A DNA stretch of 8,834 nucleotides from the NCBI GenBank assembly GCA_021778875.1, contig JAJYBT010000056.1, positions 1 to 8,834 of the forward strand, written 5' to 3'. A model generated the notes under the pieces. It had not been told where the DNA came from. It did not search any database and worked only from the letters and a program-made list of their open reading frames with translations. Origin of the DNA: Acidobacteriota bacterium. GTDB taxonomy: Bacteria > Acidobacteriota > Terriglobia > Terriglobales > Acidobacteriaceae. The translations under genes and the position numbers were made by a program. This document shows positions 1,060 through 7,699 of this stretch, one piece after another; the stretch's first letter is position 1, and each line of letters opens with the position of its first letter.

Positions 1060-1089
1060 TTGACAGGAGCAGAGTGCTGCATTTACGCT
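1060..1089 (+). promoter_or_regulatory. Candidate sigma70-type promoter of the his operon
   Basis: A perfect -35 consensus TTGACA (1060-1065) is followed after 18 bp by TACGCT (1084-1089), which keeps the first T, the second A and the final T of the -10 consensus. A start 7-10 nt after the -10 would fall at about 1096-1099, on or just before the ATG of the His-rich leader ORF at 1099. The site lies in the short spacer after the mscS stop, where a his promoter is expected. The -10 is only 3 of 6, so the exact start is inferred. Confidence 0.6.
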
Positions 1090-1098
1090 GTTTTGTAG

Positions 1099-1176
1099 AT
1101 GCAGAGCCACCGCCATCACGGTCACCATCACCATCATGGACATACCATGTCGGCGGACTGCTGTGGCCTGAGCTAA
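1099..1176 (+). CDS. hisL: Histidine-rich leader peptide of the his attenuator
   Basis: A 26-codon ORF (ATG 1099, TAA 1174-1176) encodes 25 residues, 9 of them His, at positions 4, 6, 7, 9-13 and 15 (core HHGHHHHHGH). The His codons mix CAC and CAT, which argues for selection on the amino acid and against a simple trinucleotide repeat. The tail reads TMSADCCGLS. Placement between a promoter and an intrinsic terminator 25 nt beyond its stop, directly ahead of hisI-hisG, matches the hisL leader of enterobacteria: translation senses charged tRNA-His. The start is forced, because TAG (1096-1098) immediately precedes the ATG in frame. There is no Shine-Dalgarno in the usual window; the nearest purine tract (AGGAG, 1065-1069) is about 29 nt away and overlaps the -35. 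The predicted transcription start suggests a leaderless mRNA. Role inferred from architecture; the gene symbol is by analogy. It could instead be a metal-binding micropeptide, which I find less likely. Confidence 0.85.
   Translation: MQSHRHHGHHHHHGHTMSADCCGLS
1110..1156 (+). promoter_or_regulatory. Possible protector (1:2) hairpin within the leader ORF
   Basis: CCGCC (1110-1114) can pair with GGCGG (1152-1156), and inside it CATGG (1135-1139) pairs with CCATG (1145-1149) around the loop ACATA. Both stems sequester part of the segment used as the antiterminator left arm (1148-1156), so in an untranslated transcript they would favour the terminator. This is the usual 1:2 structure of amino-acid attenuators. 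The stems are only 5 bp each, so the fold is plausible but not certain. Confidence 0.45.
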
Positions 1177-1214
1177 ACGGCCAGAGAGATTCAGAACTAC
1201 CAAGCCCGCCGGCA
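1148..1214 (+). promoter_or_regulatory. Antiterminator pairing of the his attenuator
   Basis: UGUCGGCGG (1148-1156) can pair with CCGCCGGCA (1206-1214) as 9 continuous pairs, one of them U-G. The right arm contains most of the terminator's left arm (1202-1213), so the two structures exclude each other. Between the arms UGGCC (1164-1168) can pair with GGCCA (1179-1183), a nested hairpin that would bring the arms together and holds the leader stop codon in its loop. The left arm starts 5 nt after the last His codon (1141-1143): free when a ribosome stalls within the His run, covered when it reaches the stop. Base pairing is seen directly; the switching is inferred. Confidence 0.7.
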
Positions 1215-1234
1215 ACCCTGCCGACGGGCTTTTT
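1202..1234 (+). terminator. Intrinsic terminator (attenuator) before hisI
   Basis: AAGCCCGCCGGC (1202-1213) and GCCGACGGGCTT (1220-1231) form a 12-position stem with a single C-A mismatch and a 6-nt loop (AACCCT). The T run is 1230-1234, its first two bases lying in the stem. It is a strong GC-rich intrinsic terminator placed 62 nt upstream of hisI, not at the end of a gene. It starts 25 nt after the leader ORF stop, so a ribosome released there would not block it. It may also end transcripts reading through from mscS. Confidence 0.85.
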
Positions 1235-1296
1235 CATGCGCGGCATGTGTTGTCCCATACAAACAACGAAAAAAGGACCAGGAAGCCAGGAAGAAG

Positions 1297-1656
1297 ATGA
1301 GCAACGAGACCCCGAAGATTGATTTTGAAAAGATGGACGGCCTGGTGCCGGGCATTGTGCAGGACGCCCGCACAGGCGAGGTACTGATGCTGGGATTTCT
1401 GAACCCGATCAGTTATGCGAAGACGTTGGAGAGCGGCTATGTCACGTTCTGGAGCCGCACCCGCCAGAAGCTGTGGATGAAGGGCGAGAGCAGTGGCAAC
1501 CGCCTGCGCATTGTCTCCGCATCTACAGACTGCGACAACGACACGCTGCTCTTCCGCGTTGAGGTGGAAGGCGACGGCCTGGTGTGCCACGAGGGCACCG
1601 TAAGCTGCTTTACCCGGCCCATTGCAAAAGAAGAAATGGAGGCGAACCGTGGCTAA
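1297..1656 (+). CDS. hisI: Phosphoribosyl-AMP cyclohydrolase (HisI)
   Basis: Cytoplasmic zinc enzyme of histidine synthesis step 3: opens the adenine ring of phosphoribosyl-AMP to give ProFAR. The 119-residue protein has the family signature [17 protein letters not shown] (52-68), the metal-binding DCDND (78-82) and CHEGTVSCF (97-105); C79, C97 and C104 match the zinc cysteines. It is monofunctional: the PRA-pyrophosphatase (HisE) domain fused behind it in E. coli is absent. The ATG is preceded by AGGAAG (1288-1293), part of a tandem CCAGGAAG duplication (1278-1285 and 1286-1293). It is the first structural gene after the attenuator, and its end overlaps hisG by 8 nt. First position is unusual, since hisI is often last in his operons. 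Confidence 0.96.
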
Positions 1657-2524
1657 TAAACTTCGTCTTGGACTGCCCAAGGGCAGCCTGCAGGACGCTA
1701 CGATTGCTTTGTTCAAGCGCGCGGGCTGGAACATCTATGCCGACGGCCGTTCTTACTTTCCTTCTGTTGACGACAGCGAGCTGGAGTGCATGCTGATTCG
1801 CGCGCAGGAGATGGCGCGCTATGTCGATCACGGCGTACTGGATGCCGGGCTCACTGGAATTGATTGGGTGGTTGAGAGCGGTCTGGATGTCACCAGCGTG
1901 ACGTCGCTAACCTATGCCAAGCAGAGCCGCCGCAAGGTTCGCTGGGTGCTGGCCGTGCCGGAAGGAAGCGGGTACGAGAAGGCTGAGGACCTGGAAGGCA
2001 AGATCATCGCCACCGAGCTTGTCGAAGTGACCAAGCGCTACTTCGCTGACAAGGGTGTCAACGTGAGAGTGGAGTTCAGCTGGGGAGCCACGGAAGTGAA
2101 GCCGCCCACGCTGGCCGATGCCATTGTCGAAGTGACGGAGACTGGCAGCTCGCTGAAGGCAAATCATCTGAAGATTATCGACACGGTGATGGAGAGCGAG
2201 ACGCACCTGATCGCTGGCAAGGCGGCGCTTGCCGATGAGTGGAAACGAACGAAGATTGATCAGATTGCGATGATGCTGCGCGGAGCGATTGATGCACAGT
2301 CGCAGGTCGGGCTGATGCTGAATGTCCGAGTGGAGCAGCTGGACGGCGTGCTTGCCGTATTGCCTGCGCTGAACTCGCCCACCGTGTCGCACCTGAGCAA
2401 CTCGGAGTGGGTTGCAGTGAACACGATTGTGGAGGAGCGTGTTGCTCGCGATGTGATTCCGCGCCTGAAGGCCGCCGGGGCAACGGGCATTGTGGAGTAC
2501 CCGCTGAACAAGGTCGTGCTGTAG
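1649..2524 (+). CDS. hisG: ATP phosphoribosyltransferase, long form (HisG)
   Basis: Catalyses the first committed step, joining ATP and PRPP to give phosphoribosyl-ATP; normally feedback-inhibited by histidine. The protein is 291 residues: an N-terminal two-lobe catalytic part opening [11 protein letters not shown] (5-15), a PRPP-binding stretch [14 protein letters not shown] (146-159) followed by ETGSSL (164-169), and a C-terminal ACT-like regulatory domain from about residue 208 to the end. This length marks the HisG-long type, which does not need the HisZ partner. The start chosen is GTG 1649, with GGAGG at 1638-1642 six bases upstream; translation then begins [12 protein letters not shown], the expected family N-terminus. 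An in-frame ATG at 1622 would add nine residues lying wholly within hisI and has no good ribosome site. The start overlaps hisI by 8 nt, suggesting translational coupling. Confidence 0.96.
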
Positions 2525-2644
2525 GGCGGCTTATTCAAGCGCAGAGAAGCGCTGATCATGTGGAGCGGCTCTTATGCAGCATGGAGCCGCTCACAGAGGC
2601 TTGAGATTGATCATGGGGAATGCGGGTTCTATCAGGAGCAGGCA
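2525..2644 (+). promoter_or_regulatory. hisG-hisD spacer with RNA hairpins
   Basis: This 120-nt spacer is the only real gap inside the operon. GAGCGGCTC (2563-2571) pairs perfectly with GAGCCGCTC (2584-2592) around a 12-nt loop that itself contains ATG/CAT arms. A smaller hairpin is AGCGC (2538-2542) with GCGCT (2549-2553). The octamer TGATCATG occurs twice, at 2553-2560 and 2608-2615. No T run follows the hairpins, so they are unlikely to be terminators. They may act in mRNA processing or stability, or set the HisG to HisD ratio. I see no convincing internal promoter. Confidence 0.5.
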
Positions 2645-3934
2645 ATGAAGCTGATTCGGACCAGTGGGAAAGGCGCGCAGGCATCGGCGCAGGTGCTCGC
2701 GACGCTTGAGCGGCGCGGCGGCACCTCGCTTGAGTCGGTGCAGCCTGCCGTCCGTCGCATTGTGACCGCAGTGCGCCGGCAGGGAGATCGTGCACTCTTC
2801 CGCTTTGCACGGCAATTCGATGGGCTTGCGGGGCCGGCTCAGTTTCGTATTTCGCAGGACGAGATGCGCGCCGCATGGGATGCGACGGATCCGCTGCTGC
2901 GGGATGCGCTTGCAAAGGCTGCCGCGCAGATTCGCAAATTTGCGCAGCGGCAGATGCCCGGCTCGTGGAGCAAGACGGCGGGGAATGGTCTTATCACCGG
3001 CCAGTTGGTGCGGCCCATTGCGTCGGTTGGATGCTATGTTCCCAGCGGTCGCCATCCGCTGCCTTCCACTCTGCTGATGACCGCGATTCCCGCGCAGGTT
3101 GCGGGTGTGGAGCGCATTGTTGCAATTTCACCCAGGCCTGCACAGGAGACGCTGGCGGCCGCGCACCTGCTGGGAATCCGCGAGTTTTATCGGGTGGGCG
3201 GCGCGCACGGCGTGGCTGCTCTGGCCTATGGCACAGAGAGCCTGCCGCGTGTGGACAAGATTGTTGGCCCCGGCAACCTGTTTGTGACTGCGGCCAAGCG
3301 CATGGTGGCCTTTGATTGCGCGATCGACATGCTCGCAGGGCCTACAGAGATTGTGGTCACCAGTGAGCGCGGCACCGCAGCGGGCATTGCGTCGGACCTG
3401 GTTGCGCAGGCTGAGCATGATCCGGAGGCGCTGGCCGTGTTCATCACCACGCAGATGGAACTGGCGAAAGAGGTGATTGCGGAAACGCACGCGCGCAGCC
3501 AAGACAATGCGGTGGCACGAAAGGCTCTGGAACGCAATGGAGTGGTCGTTGTTGCGAAGAATATTGCAGAGGCGCGGGAGATAACGAATCGTCTGGCGCC
3601 TGAGCATCTTACGGTGGATGCGGCCAGCGACCTGGACTGGGTTCACAATGCAGGCTCTGTGTTTGTAGGCCGTTGGTCGGCACAGCCGATGGGCGATTAC
3701 ATCTCCGGGCCCAATCACACGCTGCCGACCGGGGGCATGGCTCGCGTGCGCGGCGGCTTGAGCGTGAACGACTTCGTCAAGCTGATTACCGTGCAGGAGT
3801 ACTCTGCCGATGGCATGCGCGCACTGGGGCCGAAGGCCGCGTTGCTGGCGGAGGCGGAGGGTCTTGTGGGCCATGCCGAGGCGATTCGAACGCGCCTGCG
3901 CAGAGCGAAGGTGCAGAGGAGGCCTCGTGGTTAA
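2645..3934 (+). CDS. hisD: Histidinol dehydrogenase (HisD)
   Basis: Performs the last two steps, oxidising L-histidinol to histidinal and then histidine with two NAD+; zinc-dependent, cytoplasmic, dimeric. The 429-residue product has the full family length and signature: GGAHGVAALAYGTE (185-198), VDKIVGPGN (203-211), zinc ligands Q255 and H258 in AQAEHD, D351 in MGDYISGPNHTLPTGG, and H410 near the C-terminus. The catalytic pair E320-H321 sits in APEHL. The ATG at 2645 has AGGAG (2634-2638) six bases upstream and gives a normal N-terminus. An in-frame ATG at 2558 would add 29 residues running through the spacer hairpin and is rejected. The 3' end overlaps hisC by 8 nt. Nothing essential is missing. 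Confidence 0.97.
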   Translation: MKLIRTSGKGAQASAQVLATLERRGGTSLESVQPAVRRIVTAVRRQGDRALFRFARQFDGLAGPAQFRISQDEMRAAWDATDPLLRDALAKAAAQIRKFAQRQMPGSWSKTAGNGLITGQLVRPIASVGCYVPSGRHPLPSTLLMTAIPAQVAGVERIVAISPRPAQETLAAAHLLGIREFYRVGGAHGVAALAYGTESLPRVDKIVGPGNLFVTAAKRMVAFDCAIDMLAGPTEIVVTSERGTAAGIASDLVAQAEHDPEALAVFITTQMELAKEVIAETHARSQDNAVARKALERNGVVVVAKNIAEAREITNRLAPEHLTVDAASDLDWVHNAGSVFVGRWSAQPMGDYISGPNHTLPTGGMARVRGGLSVNDFVKLITVQEYSADGMRALGPKAALLAEAEGLVGHAEAIRTRLRRAKVQRRPRG

Positions 3935-5021
3935 CGACGCGAATGCTTTGTATCCGGCGCCCCGCGCACGCGTGCAGGCGATGAAGGAGTATCACCCTCC
4001 GCTTGGCAGCCGCGATGCGCTGCGACTGGACTTCAATGAAAATACGCTGGCCTGCTCGCCCAGGGTGCGCGAGGTTCTGGGCTGCGTGTCTACGGGCCAT
4101 TTGACGCGTTATCCGGAGCGGGAACCTGTTGAGGCCATGGTGGCGGCACATCTGGGCGTGCAGCCGCTACAGGTGGTTTTGACGAATGGAGTGGATGAGG
4201 CGATTCACGTCCTGTTCGAAGCATTTTTAGACGAGGGGGATGAACTGCTGTTGCCCGTGCCGACGTACACGATGTACGAGGTGTATGCGTCTGCCACGGA
4301 TGCGCGGGTGATTGCGGTGCAGGCTGCGGACGATCTGCAGTTTCCCTTCGAGCGCCTTCTGGCGGCCATCACAGAGTGCACGAAGATCATTGCGATTGCC
4401 AATCCGAACAGCCCAGCCGGATCGGTGGCCACGCGGGAACAGATACTGGAGATTGCGAAACGCGCGCCGAATGCAGTGTTGTTGATCGATGAGGCCTACT
4501 TCCATTTTTATGGTGAGACGGTACTGGATCTTGTCGGCACGGTTCCAAACCTGGTGGTAGCGCGCACGTTTTCCAAGGCGTATGGCCTTGCGGGTCTGCG
4601 CCTGGGATTGCTTGCGGCAGACGCTGGCGTGGTGCGCTGGATTCGTCGTGTGCTTTCGCCCTACAGCGTGAACTCGCTGGCGCTTGCGTGCCTGCCGGCA
4701 GCGCTTGAGGATCAGAGCTATCTGGACTGGTACGTGGCGGAGGTGCTGGCCGCACGCACTGAGTTTGAATCGGCTCTGGATGCGGCAGGAGTGCGCCGCT
4801 GGCCGAGTCGCGCGAATTTTGTGCTTGTGGAGATTGGCCCGCAGCACAAGGAGTTTACAGCGAAGATGCACGCAGCCGGCGTGCTGGTACGCGACCGGTC
4901 GAGCGATCCCGGTTGCGATGGGCGCGTGCGCATCACCATTGGAACCCGGCAGCAGATGCAGCAGGCGGCACAGGCCCTGAACGAAACACTGGCGGCATTA
5001 CGAGCCGGAATCGAGGCGTAA
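3927..5021 (+). CDS. hisC: Histidinol-phosphate aminotransferase (HisC)
   Basis: PLP enzyme of step 7, converting imidazole acetol phosphate plus glutamate to histidinol phosphate and 2-oxoglutarate. The 364-residue protein shows the HisC N-terminal LDFNENT (34-40), [10 protein letters not shown] (157-166), DEAYFHF (188-194), the Schiff-base lysine K217 in [17 protein letters not shown]225, and the substrate-phosphate region around R334 (GRVRITIGT). The start chosen is GTG 3927, with AGGAGG at 3917-3922 four bases upstream, a slightly tight spacing. It overlaps the hisD stop by 8 nt, the same arrangement as hisI/hisG. A downstream ATG at 3981 is possible but would remove 18 residues, including part of the usual N-terminal segment. 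The stop overlaps the hisB ATG by one base (TAATG). Confidence 0.95.
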
Positions 5022-5638
5022 TGACAAGGACGGAAGGGAATGCCCAGAGCTTGCGCACGGCGAGCTTTGAGCGCAACACGACAGAGACGAAGATTGCGAT
5101 CCGGCTGACGATCGAGGGCGGCGGCCACTACAAGGTGTCCACGGGCATTCGATTTTTTGATCACATGCTGGAGCTGTTCACGCGCCACGGAGCCTTTGAT
5201 CTGGAGCTGAAGTGCGACGGCGATCTGGATGTGGATCAGCATCACACGGTGGAGGATGTGGGCATTGCGCTGGGCGAGGCCTTCGATCGCGCCCTGGGGG
5301 ATAAGCGGGGCATTCTGCGCGCGGGATATTTTCTGATGCCGATGGACGAGACGCTTGCCATCGCAGCTGTAGATCTGAGCGGCCGCGCGGCATTTGCCGT
5401 GGACACGAAGGTTCGCACGCGCCTGGTGGGCGACCTGCAGACCGAGCTGGTCACGGATTTCTTTGAGGGATTTGCGCGCGGGGCCAGGGCGAATGTGCAC
5501 GTCAAGACCATGTATGGCCGCTCGAATCACCACAAGATTGAGGCGATCTTCAAGGCGTTTGCCAGAGCGCTGCGCGTGGCCTGCTCGCGCGATCAGCAAC
5601 TGGGCGAGATGCTGCCTTCGACAAAGGGACTGCTCTGA
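5021..5638 (+). CDS. hisB: Imidazoleglycerol-phosphate dehydratase (HisB, monofunctional)
   Basis: Mn-dependent dehydratase of step 6, turning imidazole glycerol phosphate into imidazole acetol phosphate. At 205 residues it is the monofunctional form; no N-terminal HAD-type histidinol-phosphatase domain is present, unlike E. coli HisB. Signatures are clear: [13 protein letters not shown] (45-57), [16 protein letters not shown] (72-87), MDETLA (108-113) and [19 protein letters not shown] (166-184), which supply the His/Glu metal ligands. The N-terminal ~12 residues are poorly conserved. The ATG shares one base with the hisC stop and has GAGG (5013-5016) upstream; the stop in turn shares one base with the hisH ATG (TGATG). 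Histidinol-phosphate dephosphorylation must come from another locus. Confidence 0.97.
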
Positions 5639-6255
5639 TGCGCGTGACGGTGATTGATTACAAGGCCGGGAATCTGACCTCTGTGCTCAAGGCGCTGCGG
5701 CATCTGGGCGCGGAGGCTGAGGTGACTGACGGGCCCGGACCTGTGCAGAGCGCCGAGCGGATTGTGCTGCCGGGCGTGGGACATTTTGCCGCAACGGAAC
5801 GGCTGGATGCGAACGGGCTTACGCCCGCGATTCGCGCGGCCATTGCGCGCAGCGTTCCATTTCTCGGCATCTGTGTTGGCATGCAATGGCTCTTTGCGGG
5901 ATCGAGCGAAGCGCCGGCGCAGCCTGGGCTGGCGCAGTTCGCCGAGGTTTGCACGCGCTTTCCGGAGGGCTCGGAGAAGGTTCCGCACGTGGGTTGGAAC
6001 TCGCTGGAAGTGAGCCCGCGATCGCATCTGCTTGCGGGCGTGCAGAGCGGTGAGTTCGTCTACTTTACGCACTCGTACAAGGCGCCGGTAACGGAGAACA
6101 CTGCGGCCGTTACGCACTATATTGAGCCGTTTGCCGCGGCTGTTGAAGAGCGCAATGTGATGGGCGTTCAGTTTCATCCGGAGAAGTCCGGCGCGACCGG
6201 ATTGCGGATTCTGCAGAATTTTCTGGAGTGGAAGCCCAAGGAGAGCGCATGCTGA
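5638..6255 (+). CDS. hisH: Imidazole glycerol phosphate synthase, glutaminase subunit (HisH)
   Basis: Class I glutamine amidotransferase subunit. It releases ammonia from glutamine and channels it to HisF for step 5 (PRFAR to imidazole glycerol phosphate plus AICAR). The protein is 205 residues. Its nucleophile C79 is in [11 protein letters not shown], the oxyanion-strand motif is LPGVGHF (44-50), and the triad partners are H180 and E182 in [10 protein letters not shown]. The N-terminus [12 protein letters not shown] is typical. The ATG shares its first base with the hisB stop; AAAGGGA (5623-5629) provides a ribosome site. The 3' end overlaps hisF by 7 nt, as expected for two subunits made in equal amounts. 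Confidence 0.96.
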
Positions 6256-7028
6256 CCAAACGAATCATTGCATGCCTGGATGTGCACGGCGGGCGCGTGG
6301 TGAAGGGCGTGCAGTTCGTGGACCTGGTGGATGCCGGAGATCCGGCCGCGCTGGCGGCGCGTCATGCACGTGAGGGCGCGGATGAGATTGTTCTGCTGGA
6401 CATTACCGCTACGCACGAAAAGCGGCAGACGCTGCTGGACACGGTGCGCCGCACTGCGCGCGAGCTCTTTGTTCCGTTCGCAGTGGGTGGGGGAATCCGC
6501 AGCGCGCGCGATGCCGAGCAGGTGTTTGACGCCGGGGCGGACAAGGTCAGCATCAACTCCGCGGCGCTTGCGGATCCGGGCTTGATTGACGCGATTGGTC
6601 GCAGCTTTGGCGCGCAGGCGGTAGTGGTTGCGATTGATGCGCGTCGCGATCCCGTGGCCGCGGATCCGGTGAGGGATGCGCAGGTGTATGTGCAGGGTGG
6701 CCGCAAGCCTGCCGGCCGCAGGGTGGTGGAGTGGGCGCGCGAGGCAGAGGCTCGTGGAGCCGGAGAGATTTTGCTTACGTCCATGGACGCGGACGGAACG
6801 CGCGCTGGCTTTGATTGCGAGTTGACCGCTGCAGTGAGCGAGGCGGTCAGCATTCCGGTAATTGCTTCCGGCGGCGCCGGCACAGTGGCTCACTTTGTGG
6901 ATGTCTTTGCGCGCGGCAAGGCCGATGCGGCCCTGGCTGCAAGCATCTTTCACTTTGGCATTTCGAGCGCGCGATCGCTCAAGCAAGAGCTGGCCAAGGC
7001 CGGCGTACCTGTGAGGCTGCCATGCTGA
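6249..7028 (+). CDS. hisF: Imidazole glycerol phosphate synthase, cyclase subunit (HisF)
   Basis: A (beta-alpha)8-barrel partner of HisH that uses the channelled ammonia to cleave PRFAR into imidazole glycerol phosphate and AICAR. The 259-residue protein has both catalytic aspartates, D11 ([15 protein letters not shown]) and D130 ([10 protein letters not shown]). It also has the phosphate-binding motifs AVGGGIRS (78-85) and IASGGAGT (205-212), and the HisF loop VQGGRKPAG (148-156). The ATG at 6249 has AAGGAG (6238-6243) five bases upstream and overlaps hisH by 7 nt; an in-frame ATG at 6228 is rejected, since it would add seven residues within hisH. HisF precedes HisA here, whereas hisA usually comes first. 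The stop overlaps the hisA ATG by 7 nt through the same octamer, CATGCTGA, as the hisH junction. Confidence 0.96.
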
Positions 7029-7699
7029 TTCCTTCGATTGATCTTCTGGGTGGTCGCATCGTCCAGCTTGTGCAGGGCGAAAAGCTGCGCCTTGCCTTTG
7101 ACGACTTTGAATACTGGATTGAGAAGTTCTCGCGCTTTCCACTGGTGCAACTGATCGATCTGGACGCGGCGATGCGGCAGGGAGACAACGCGGCCCTGGT
7201 GGCGCAGATTGCGCGACGCCTGCAATGCCAGGTGGGCGGCGGAATCCGCACTGCCGAACGCGCCAGGCAGGTTCTGGATGCCGGAGCAAGGCGCGTGATT
7301 ATTGGCTCCGCGCTTTTCTCAGAGCAAGGCACCGTGAACGCCGAGTTTGCCGCGAGCCTGACGGCAAGCGTTGGTGCCGAGCACGTGGTTGCCGGTATCG
7401 ACACGAAGAATGGGCGCATTGCCGTGAAGGGTTGGAAGGCACAGGTGGCGCTCACACCTGATGAAGCGATTCCGCAGCTTGATCCGCACGTTGCGGCGTT
7501 CCTGTATACGCATGTGGATGGCGAAGGCCTGATGCAGGGATTTCCGGTGGACACGGCGGCGCGTTTGCGCAAGCTTACCCAGCGCCAGCTCATCGTGGCT
7601 GGTGGAATCCGTAGCCAGCAGGAGGTGGACGCGCTGGACACGCTGGGCGCCGATGCCGTTGTCGGCATGGCAGTTTACACGGAATTGCTTGCGGTTTGA
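7022..7699 (+). CDS. hisA: ProFAR isomerase (HisA), short and divergent
   Basis: Isomerase of step 4, converting ProFAR to PRFAR by an Amadori rearrangement on a (beta-alpha)8 barrel homologous to HisF. The family is shown by the N-terminal [18 protein letters not shown] with catalytic D7, the phosphate motif VGGGIRT (71-77), IIGSALF (93-99), second acid D127 in VAGIDTKNG, and a threonine (T163, in [13 protein letters not shown]) where T164 assists catalysis in the Thermotoga enzyme. It is 225 residues, against about 240-245 in most HisA. The usual TDxxRDG motif reads THVDGEG, and the C-terminal barrel loop reads VVGMAVYT where other HisA have GxALYEG. The pattern fits a lineage-specific HisA rather than decay. 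The ATG at 7022 has GAGG (7013-7016) upstream. It is the last his gene of the operon. Confidence 0.92.

Follow-up and report, generated by a model that had tools for sequence, protein, structure and literature searches.

Here, we identify positions 1060 to 1296 of an 8,834-nt stretch of DNA (the window) as a probable ribosome-mediated histidine attenuator that would act on a leaderless or nearly leaderless transcript of a his operon in the Acidobacteriota. Judged from the sequence and its relatives, we assign this reading a probability of roughly 0.88. A conserved run of His codons, a terminator and a covarying antiterminator make a ribosome-mediated his attenuator in front of a non-enterobacterial operon, as proposed in the original prediction, the best reading of the region. 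The epithet "classical" attached to that prediction fits the ribosome-mediated his type but not the message, which, unlike that of E. coli hisL, is predicted to start at the leader ATG or within a few nt of it; this predicted leaderless start is the new part. The reading proposes a function for Acidobacteria attenuators, i.e., histidine control of the his operon, that is invisible to the existing Rfam model and that would reach most sampled hisI loci of one class as well as other classes. With its predicted leaderless design and a near-fixed distance between promoter and ATG, the system could also be a clean one in which to study the pacing of ribosome and polymerase without Shine-Dalgarno loading.

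The window corresponds to G000:C151:12396-21229 in a genome of 3.6 Mb. A gene with a mechanosensitive-channel domain ends upstream at 1037, and the 259 nt between this gene and hisI contain no long gene. The operon has the order hisI, hisG, hisD, hisC, hisB, hisH, hisF, hisA, with Pfam support for all eight genes. The elements are listed in Table 1.

Table 1. Elements of the predicted attenuator and the downstream operon (window coordinates)
Feature	Position	Strand	Basis
-35 box TTGACA, perfect	1060..1065	+	22/22 genus leaders with whole upstream region
-10 box TACGCT (TANNNT type), weak, 3/6 consensus bases, 18-nt spacer	1084..1089	+	sequence
hisL-like leader ORF MQSHRHHGHHHHHGHTMSADCCGLS, 25 codons, 9 His, stop 1174-1176	1099..1176	+	translation; relatives
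Segment 1 (CCGCC), can pair with 1152-1156	1110..1114	+	94.2% of A2 cells paired
Segment 2 (GTCGGCGG / GUCGGCGG), antiterminator 5' partner, near ORF end	1149..1156	+	complementarity, joint changes
Hairpin across leader stop codon, TGGCC 1164-1168 / GGCCA 1179-1183	1164..1183	+	88.4% of A2 cells paired
Linker motif [AG]GAT[TC] (AGATT), between leader stop and terminator	1187..1191	+	95/137 distinct linkers
Intrinsic terminator, 12-position stem, one mismatch, loop 1214-1219, T tract 1230-1234	1202..1234	+	sequence, folds
Segment 3 (CCGCCGGC), antiterminator 3' partner and part of terminator 5' arm	1206..1213	+	complementarity, joint changes
hisI, first structural gene	1297..1656	+	Pfam PRA-CH 1.9e-28
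hisG, hisD, hisC, hisB, hisH, hisF, hisA	1649..7699	+	Pfam; names from family and order

Histidine leaders precede hisI in most sampled families of the class

The 25-residue ORF with nine His codons on which the original prediction was built is recovered by translation. Histidine occupies eight of ten consecutive codons (6-15), so that the run is as dense as had been claimed and slightly tighter than the eight His in 11 codons then given; all nine His codons fall within codons 4-15 (1108-1143).

Relatives of the window HisI were collected from 41 near genomes (36 with a match), from the best 80 of 346 named loci and from 200 class genomes (183 with a match), part of which were fetched. This gave 177 loci with HisI, 172 of them with at least 300 nt of upstream sequence. 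Among the class loci, L139-L178 were selected manually from the match lists, named loci were placed in family f1 by assumption, families f4, f9 and f10 were added later, and some loci are present twice under different identifiers, with distinct counts kept separately. An sORF of no more than 45 codons was scored as a leader if it contained five or more His within 12 codons. By this rule, a leader precedes hisI in 167 of 172 upstream regions (148 of 153 distinct ones), which, as best matches to the window HisI, favor its operon type; among the controls, two of 1630 windows and one of 600 shuffled sequences pass the rule. Of the 13 class families that were sampled, nine have leaders. At 162 of the 167 leader loci, the leader is followed by a T tract and a hairpin of at most -8 kcal/mol (median -21.4 kcal/mol). 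The original prediction proposed to look for the His codons in relatives, and was to be given up if these lacked both the codons and the terminator; most relatives keep the run and the terminator, and thus the sequence part of that test came out in its favor.

The five loci without a leader by the rule are L159 and L160 (f13), L162 and L163 (f5) and L178 (f6), three of which still have three to four His. No leader ORF was found by the rule at ten loci of f4, f9 and f10, where a true hisE is present and the operon differs. Both f13 loci sampled carry hisI without a leader by the rule, and regulation there may differ.

The covariance model R1 gave a match in 108 of 150 family genomes, in seven of them twice, and where the place of HisI was listed the match lay just upstream of it (e.g., G064 and G209). 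In G165 and G145, off-site matches outscored the on-site ones; we judged these to be chance rather than leaders. The off-site match L184 is an out-of-frame reading in the 3' part of a coding ORF with a terminator before the next ORF, and L185 has the same peptide. A scan of trpE-, leuA- and ilvB-like loci in the window's own genome (L234, L235, L238-L242), covering few loci by crude rules, recovered the his leader and found no leaderless Trp or branched-chain leader with a terminator; one other ORF, with W.W and no promoter, passed loosely.

Promoter position and the predicted leaderless start

A promoter had been claimed ahead of the ORF, and both boxes are found there, the -10 box being weak. 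A simple consensus scan of the region reported neither promoter nor terminator because its thresholds are too strict for a weak -10 box and a mismatched stem.

Several observations point to transcription starting at or next to the leader ATG. First, TTGACA ends 31-33 nt before the ATG in all 22 genus leaders with a whole upstream region. Second, among 146 distinct leaders from several families, TTGAC lies 30-34 nt before the ATG in 118, and TANNNT ends 8, 9 or 10 nt before it in 65, 40 and 18 cases, i.e., 123 times; several leaders from other classes have the same spacing. Third, SD-like words precede the ATG in 8 of these 146 leaders. According to a study of leaderless genes, a TANNNT box with its first T ~12 bp upstream marks such genes (PMC3160421). 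Because the first T of TANNNT here usually lies at -14 to -16, we infer a 5' UTR of 0-4 nt, i.e., a transcription start at ~1095-1098 in the window.

The same data bear on the possibility that the attenuator is real but that the leader is translated from a longer transcript of an upstream promoter. The weak -10 box of the window and the 14 of 146 leaders that lack TTGAC in the 45 nt upstream would fit such a transcript. It is nevertheless unlikely, given that the distance from -35 box to ATG is fixed throughout the genus, that the -10 box usually has the same place in distant families and in other classes, that SD-like sequences are rare, and that 9.7-19.4% of genes are predicted to be leaderless in three Acidobacteria genomes (PMC3160421). 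A leaderless or nearly leaderless leader message is the reading that we carry forward.

Terminator, antiterminator and codon conservation

The terminator claimed between leader and hisI is present in the window as a mismatched stem followed by Ts, and in relatives as described above. Its arms (1202-1213 and 1220-1231), which enclose the internal mismatch C1209/A1224, were found by a mismatch-tolerant search, and the region 1085-1240 has a folding energy of -57.1 kcal/mol, which is 3.6 sd lower than in shuffled sequences.

Segment 2, GUCGGCGG, is complementary to segment 3, CCGCCGGC, with one G-U pair. Between genera, the two partners change jointly (GCCGGCGG/CCGCCGGC, GUCAGCGG/CCGCUGAC and GUCGGCGG/CCGCCGAC), and the mutually exclusive antiterminator of the original prediction gains support from both the complementarity and these joint changes. 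A leader's own partners paired better than partners swapped with other arm classes in 119 of 142 distinct leaders, and in 92 of the 142 at most 5 of 100 leader-part shuffles paired as well. For a second test, 20 of 167 loci were dropped and GCGG and CCGC served as anchors, some of them inside the His run (e.g., L107, L116). At the six unanchored positions, the 56 distinct combinations give 239 paired cells out of 336, compared with a mean of 220.2 in shuffles (sd 4.5, maximum 233), none of 1000 reaching the observed value. Pairing counts of this kind are inflated by the relatedness of the sequences.

A2 (52 rows) gives a more mixed picture of covariation, which had been proposed as a check. 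The antiterminator cells are 97.6% paired and those of the stop-codon hairpin 88.4%. Six cells change on both sides, compared with a shuffled mean of 1.8; all six belong to a single pair, and this count of one two-sided pair is no higher than in shuffles (0.9). The pairing of segments 1 and 2 shows zero two-sided changes on A2. At columns 140/156, one pair of the terminator carries a mismatch in 33 of the 52 rows while the base on the segment 3 side is kept, which would fit a segment 3 that is also constrained by pairing with segment 2. The patterns used to select A1 and A2 demand CCGCCGGC, and that for A1 also TTGACA; the constancy of segment 3 in A2 is therefore in part a product of this selection. 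In the genus, each of the 22 loci whose upstream region is whole matched the patterns, and two of 24 are cut by contig ends.

The leader codons are conserved in two ways. At codons 6, 7 and 9-13, His is retained in 42-48 of the 48 genus-type leaders compared, and CAC and CAT are mixed at codons 9-13, with alternation greatest at 9 and 11. Retention of His while its codons alternate suggests selection as decoding needs. Further along, all 48 use GCG for Ala 19 and 47 use GAC for Asp 20; the leaders were chosen by [SPT]AD at codons 18-20, so that Ala 19 and Asp 20 are there by construction but their codon choice is not. Codon 22 specifies H, Y, T or C, yet its third base is mostly T. The fixed codon choice at 19 and 20 and the third base of codon 22 suggest selection as RNA pairing needs.

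Two further elements lie between the His run and the terminator. In the conserved hairpin across the leader stop codon, one of five pairs changes from C-G to U-A in 6 of 52 rows, and RNAalifold on A2 chose an alternative 5' hairpin and not this one; we regard it as a candidate only for a polymerase pause hairpin. The motif [AG]GAT[TC] is present in 45 of 48 linkers of the genus type and in 50 of the 89 remaining distinct ones, and in 7.4% of shuffles of the non-genus linkers. The parts of the region, their conservation and the joint change of the antiterminator partners are features of the sequences themselves.

These patterns speak to whether the product might instead be the His-rich peptide, as a metal-binding or trans-acting factor, or the terminated RNA, as an sRNA, with a terminator that merely ends the transcript. 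Conservation of the His run as amino acids would suit this idea, as would the trans roles that a report on Sinorhizobium meliloti trpL describes for the peptide and the attenuator RNA (PMC7298713). The leader peptide outside the His run, by contrast, differs between families, the codons that follow are conserved at the RNA level, and segments 2 and 3 covary, all of which render it quite improbable as a replacement for attenuation; the peptide or the RNA may have a trans role in addition. Control of hisI translation by hiding its ribosome-binding site, rather than by termination, has in its favor that at some loci only a few nt separate the T tract from hisI; in the window the tract ends 62 nt before hisI, and the regular presence of stem and T tract (162/167) makes this idea very improbable.

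Proposed mechanism and folding tests

From the arrangement of these parts, we infer how attenuation would proceed with respect to start site, leaderless loading, stalling, the part played by the stop-codon hairpin and the choice between termination and readthrough. Transcription would start 0-4 nt ahead of the leader ATG, which would let a ribosome load straight onto the 5' end. When histidine is plentiful, this ribosome would pass the His codons and reach the stop codon; segments 1 and 2 would pair behind it, the stop-codon hairpin would be occupied, and segment 3 would be free for segment 4, so that transcription would stop near 1234. When charged tRNA-His is scarce, the ribosome would stall on 1108-1143 and keep the 5' side covered. 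Segment 2 (1149-1156) would then take segment 3 (1206-1213) before segment 4 is made, and this pairing would block the terminator and allow transcription of hisIGDCBHFA.

When only the RNA upstream of segment 3 was folded, the median pairing of segment 2 with the 5' side was 0.71 without a ribosome, 0.34 with a ribosome in the middle of the His run and 0.70 with a ribosome at the stop codon. Masking in mid-run freed segment 2 (drop >0.3) in 77 of 127 leaders, and pairing rose in one. For the window's own leader, the values were 0.39 with the ribosome on the first His, 0.62 in mid-run and 0.70 unmasked. A cruder equilibrium test, in which capture of segment 3 was followed in 162 leaders, did not separate the stalled state from the stop state: medians were 0.81 in mid-run and 0.68 at the stop codon, and the difference exceeded 0.3 in 25 leaders and fell below -0.3 in none, with 22 above and 31 below among 243 shuffled controls. 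Sequestration of segment 2 before segment 3 exists discriminated better than equilibrium capture of segment 3.

Relation to known attenuators

A position outside the standard His_leader model had been anticipated and was borne out. The Rfam search of the window at E up to 10 returned no family match, including His_leader (RF00514) and T-box, and none of 17 Acidobacteriota loci reached the gathering score of His_leader in the same run in which E. coli hisL scored 131.6 bits. That a T-box or metabolite riboswitch controls the operon, the His ORF being incidental, is hardly credible, for while T-boxes control his genes in Firmicutes and Actinobacteria according to a survey (PMC9413887), the window has no such match and a His run of this density very seldom arises by chance.

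As in E. coli hisL, a short ORF with a His run, a terminator and a competing antiterminator precede the his operon. By contrast, the window operon starts with hisI and that of E. coli with hisG, and the -10 box usually lies 8-10 nt before the ATG here but 38 nt before it in E. coli, TAGGTT being what we take to be the hisL -10 box. The hairpin across the leader stop codon also sets the present leaders against E. coli hisL. Leaderless polycysteine attenuators have reportedly been described in mycobacteria by Canestrari in 2020; to go by the title, they resemble the present leaders in having a leaderless sORF that repeats the sensed residue, which is cysteine instead of His.

Among other systems, the survey on T-boxes reports his attenuators for gamma-proteobacteria and some Firmicutes (PMC9413887). 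Its Firmicutes candidates likewise have a His-rich leader, a terminator and an antiterminator and no RF00514 match, with three to five His in a row in 17 genomes, as compared with up to nine His in 12 codons here. The trpL RNA of S. meliloti starts at the leader ATG, but that system concerns Trp, trpE and an alphaproteobacterium (PMC7298713, PMC10117765). For Actinobacteria, one analysis states that there are no conserved his RNA elements (PMC1262725). In 2010, leader peptide systems had, to the knowledge of the authors of a survey and ermC aside, been shown only in Proteobacteria and Actinobacteria before their own case in Bacilli, and in that survey almost no attenuator predicted in Acidobacteria has an associated function (PMC2965389). 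In the literature searched, we found no his leader described for Acidobacteriota, nor the combination of leaderless message and histidine attenuator in this phylum; a described leader may exist, e.g., in Lopatovskaya 2010.

Leaders in other classes of the phylum

Outside the window's class, 38 loci (L186-L223) were hand-picked from the match list. Among these, 18 are hisI-hisG operons, of which 16 have a leader by the rule. A terminator with a T tract follows the leader in 13 of the 16 and in one more of them, L196; by eye, L186 and L192 have a hairpin without a T tract. L199 has, by eye, a four-His ORF with hairpin and T tract, and in the hisI-hisG operon of L210 no His-rich ORF was found.

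Eight queries yielded 17 hisG-first operons, including the ten f4, f9 and f10 loci. In three genomes of f38 (L214/L244, L218 and L220/L245), a His-rich ORF and a terminator lie ~1 kb before hisG (minus strand, about 7274, in L218; at 156 in L244; at 166 in L245). A hisZ-like gene, with TIGR00443 as best NCBIfam match below its cut-off, follows the leader in L218 and L245, and in L245 a TANNNT box lies ~10 nt before the ATG. These are probably attenuated hisZ-first operons. L201, from another family, is hisG-first with the leader MQLSSLNIHLHHHHHVHHTRVM (minus strand, about 7678) and a different terminator, and is possibly of separate origin. No leader was found in the other 12 hisG-first operons examined, and the stretch of L209 ends too soon. 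Among 13 loci with other arrangements, L223/L248 has a four-His ORF and a terminator before hisD. The notion that the leader is confined to hisI-first operons was dropped once wider stretches had been examined; the leader is thus a common feature of hisI-first operons that also occurs before some others.

We tentatively suggest, at somewhat short of even odds, that these loci reflect an old phylum-wide design, in which leaderless His leaders serve hisI-, hisZ- and hisG-first operons, direct loading at the 5' end replaces the paused-polymerase synchronization of hisL, and the stop-codon hairpin and the conserved RGATY linker report that the ribosome has finished.

The HisE step

The window operon (1297-7699) lacks hisE, and no PRA-PH match was found across genome G000, which is 95.75% complete. 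In 25 of 101 class genomes, each of them from f4, f9 or f10, a PRA-PH match falls below E = 1e-16; 47 others have weak matches in longer ORFs, which we guess to be MazG-like, and 29 have none. In this operon type, the HisE step may be carried out by a different enzyme.
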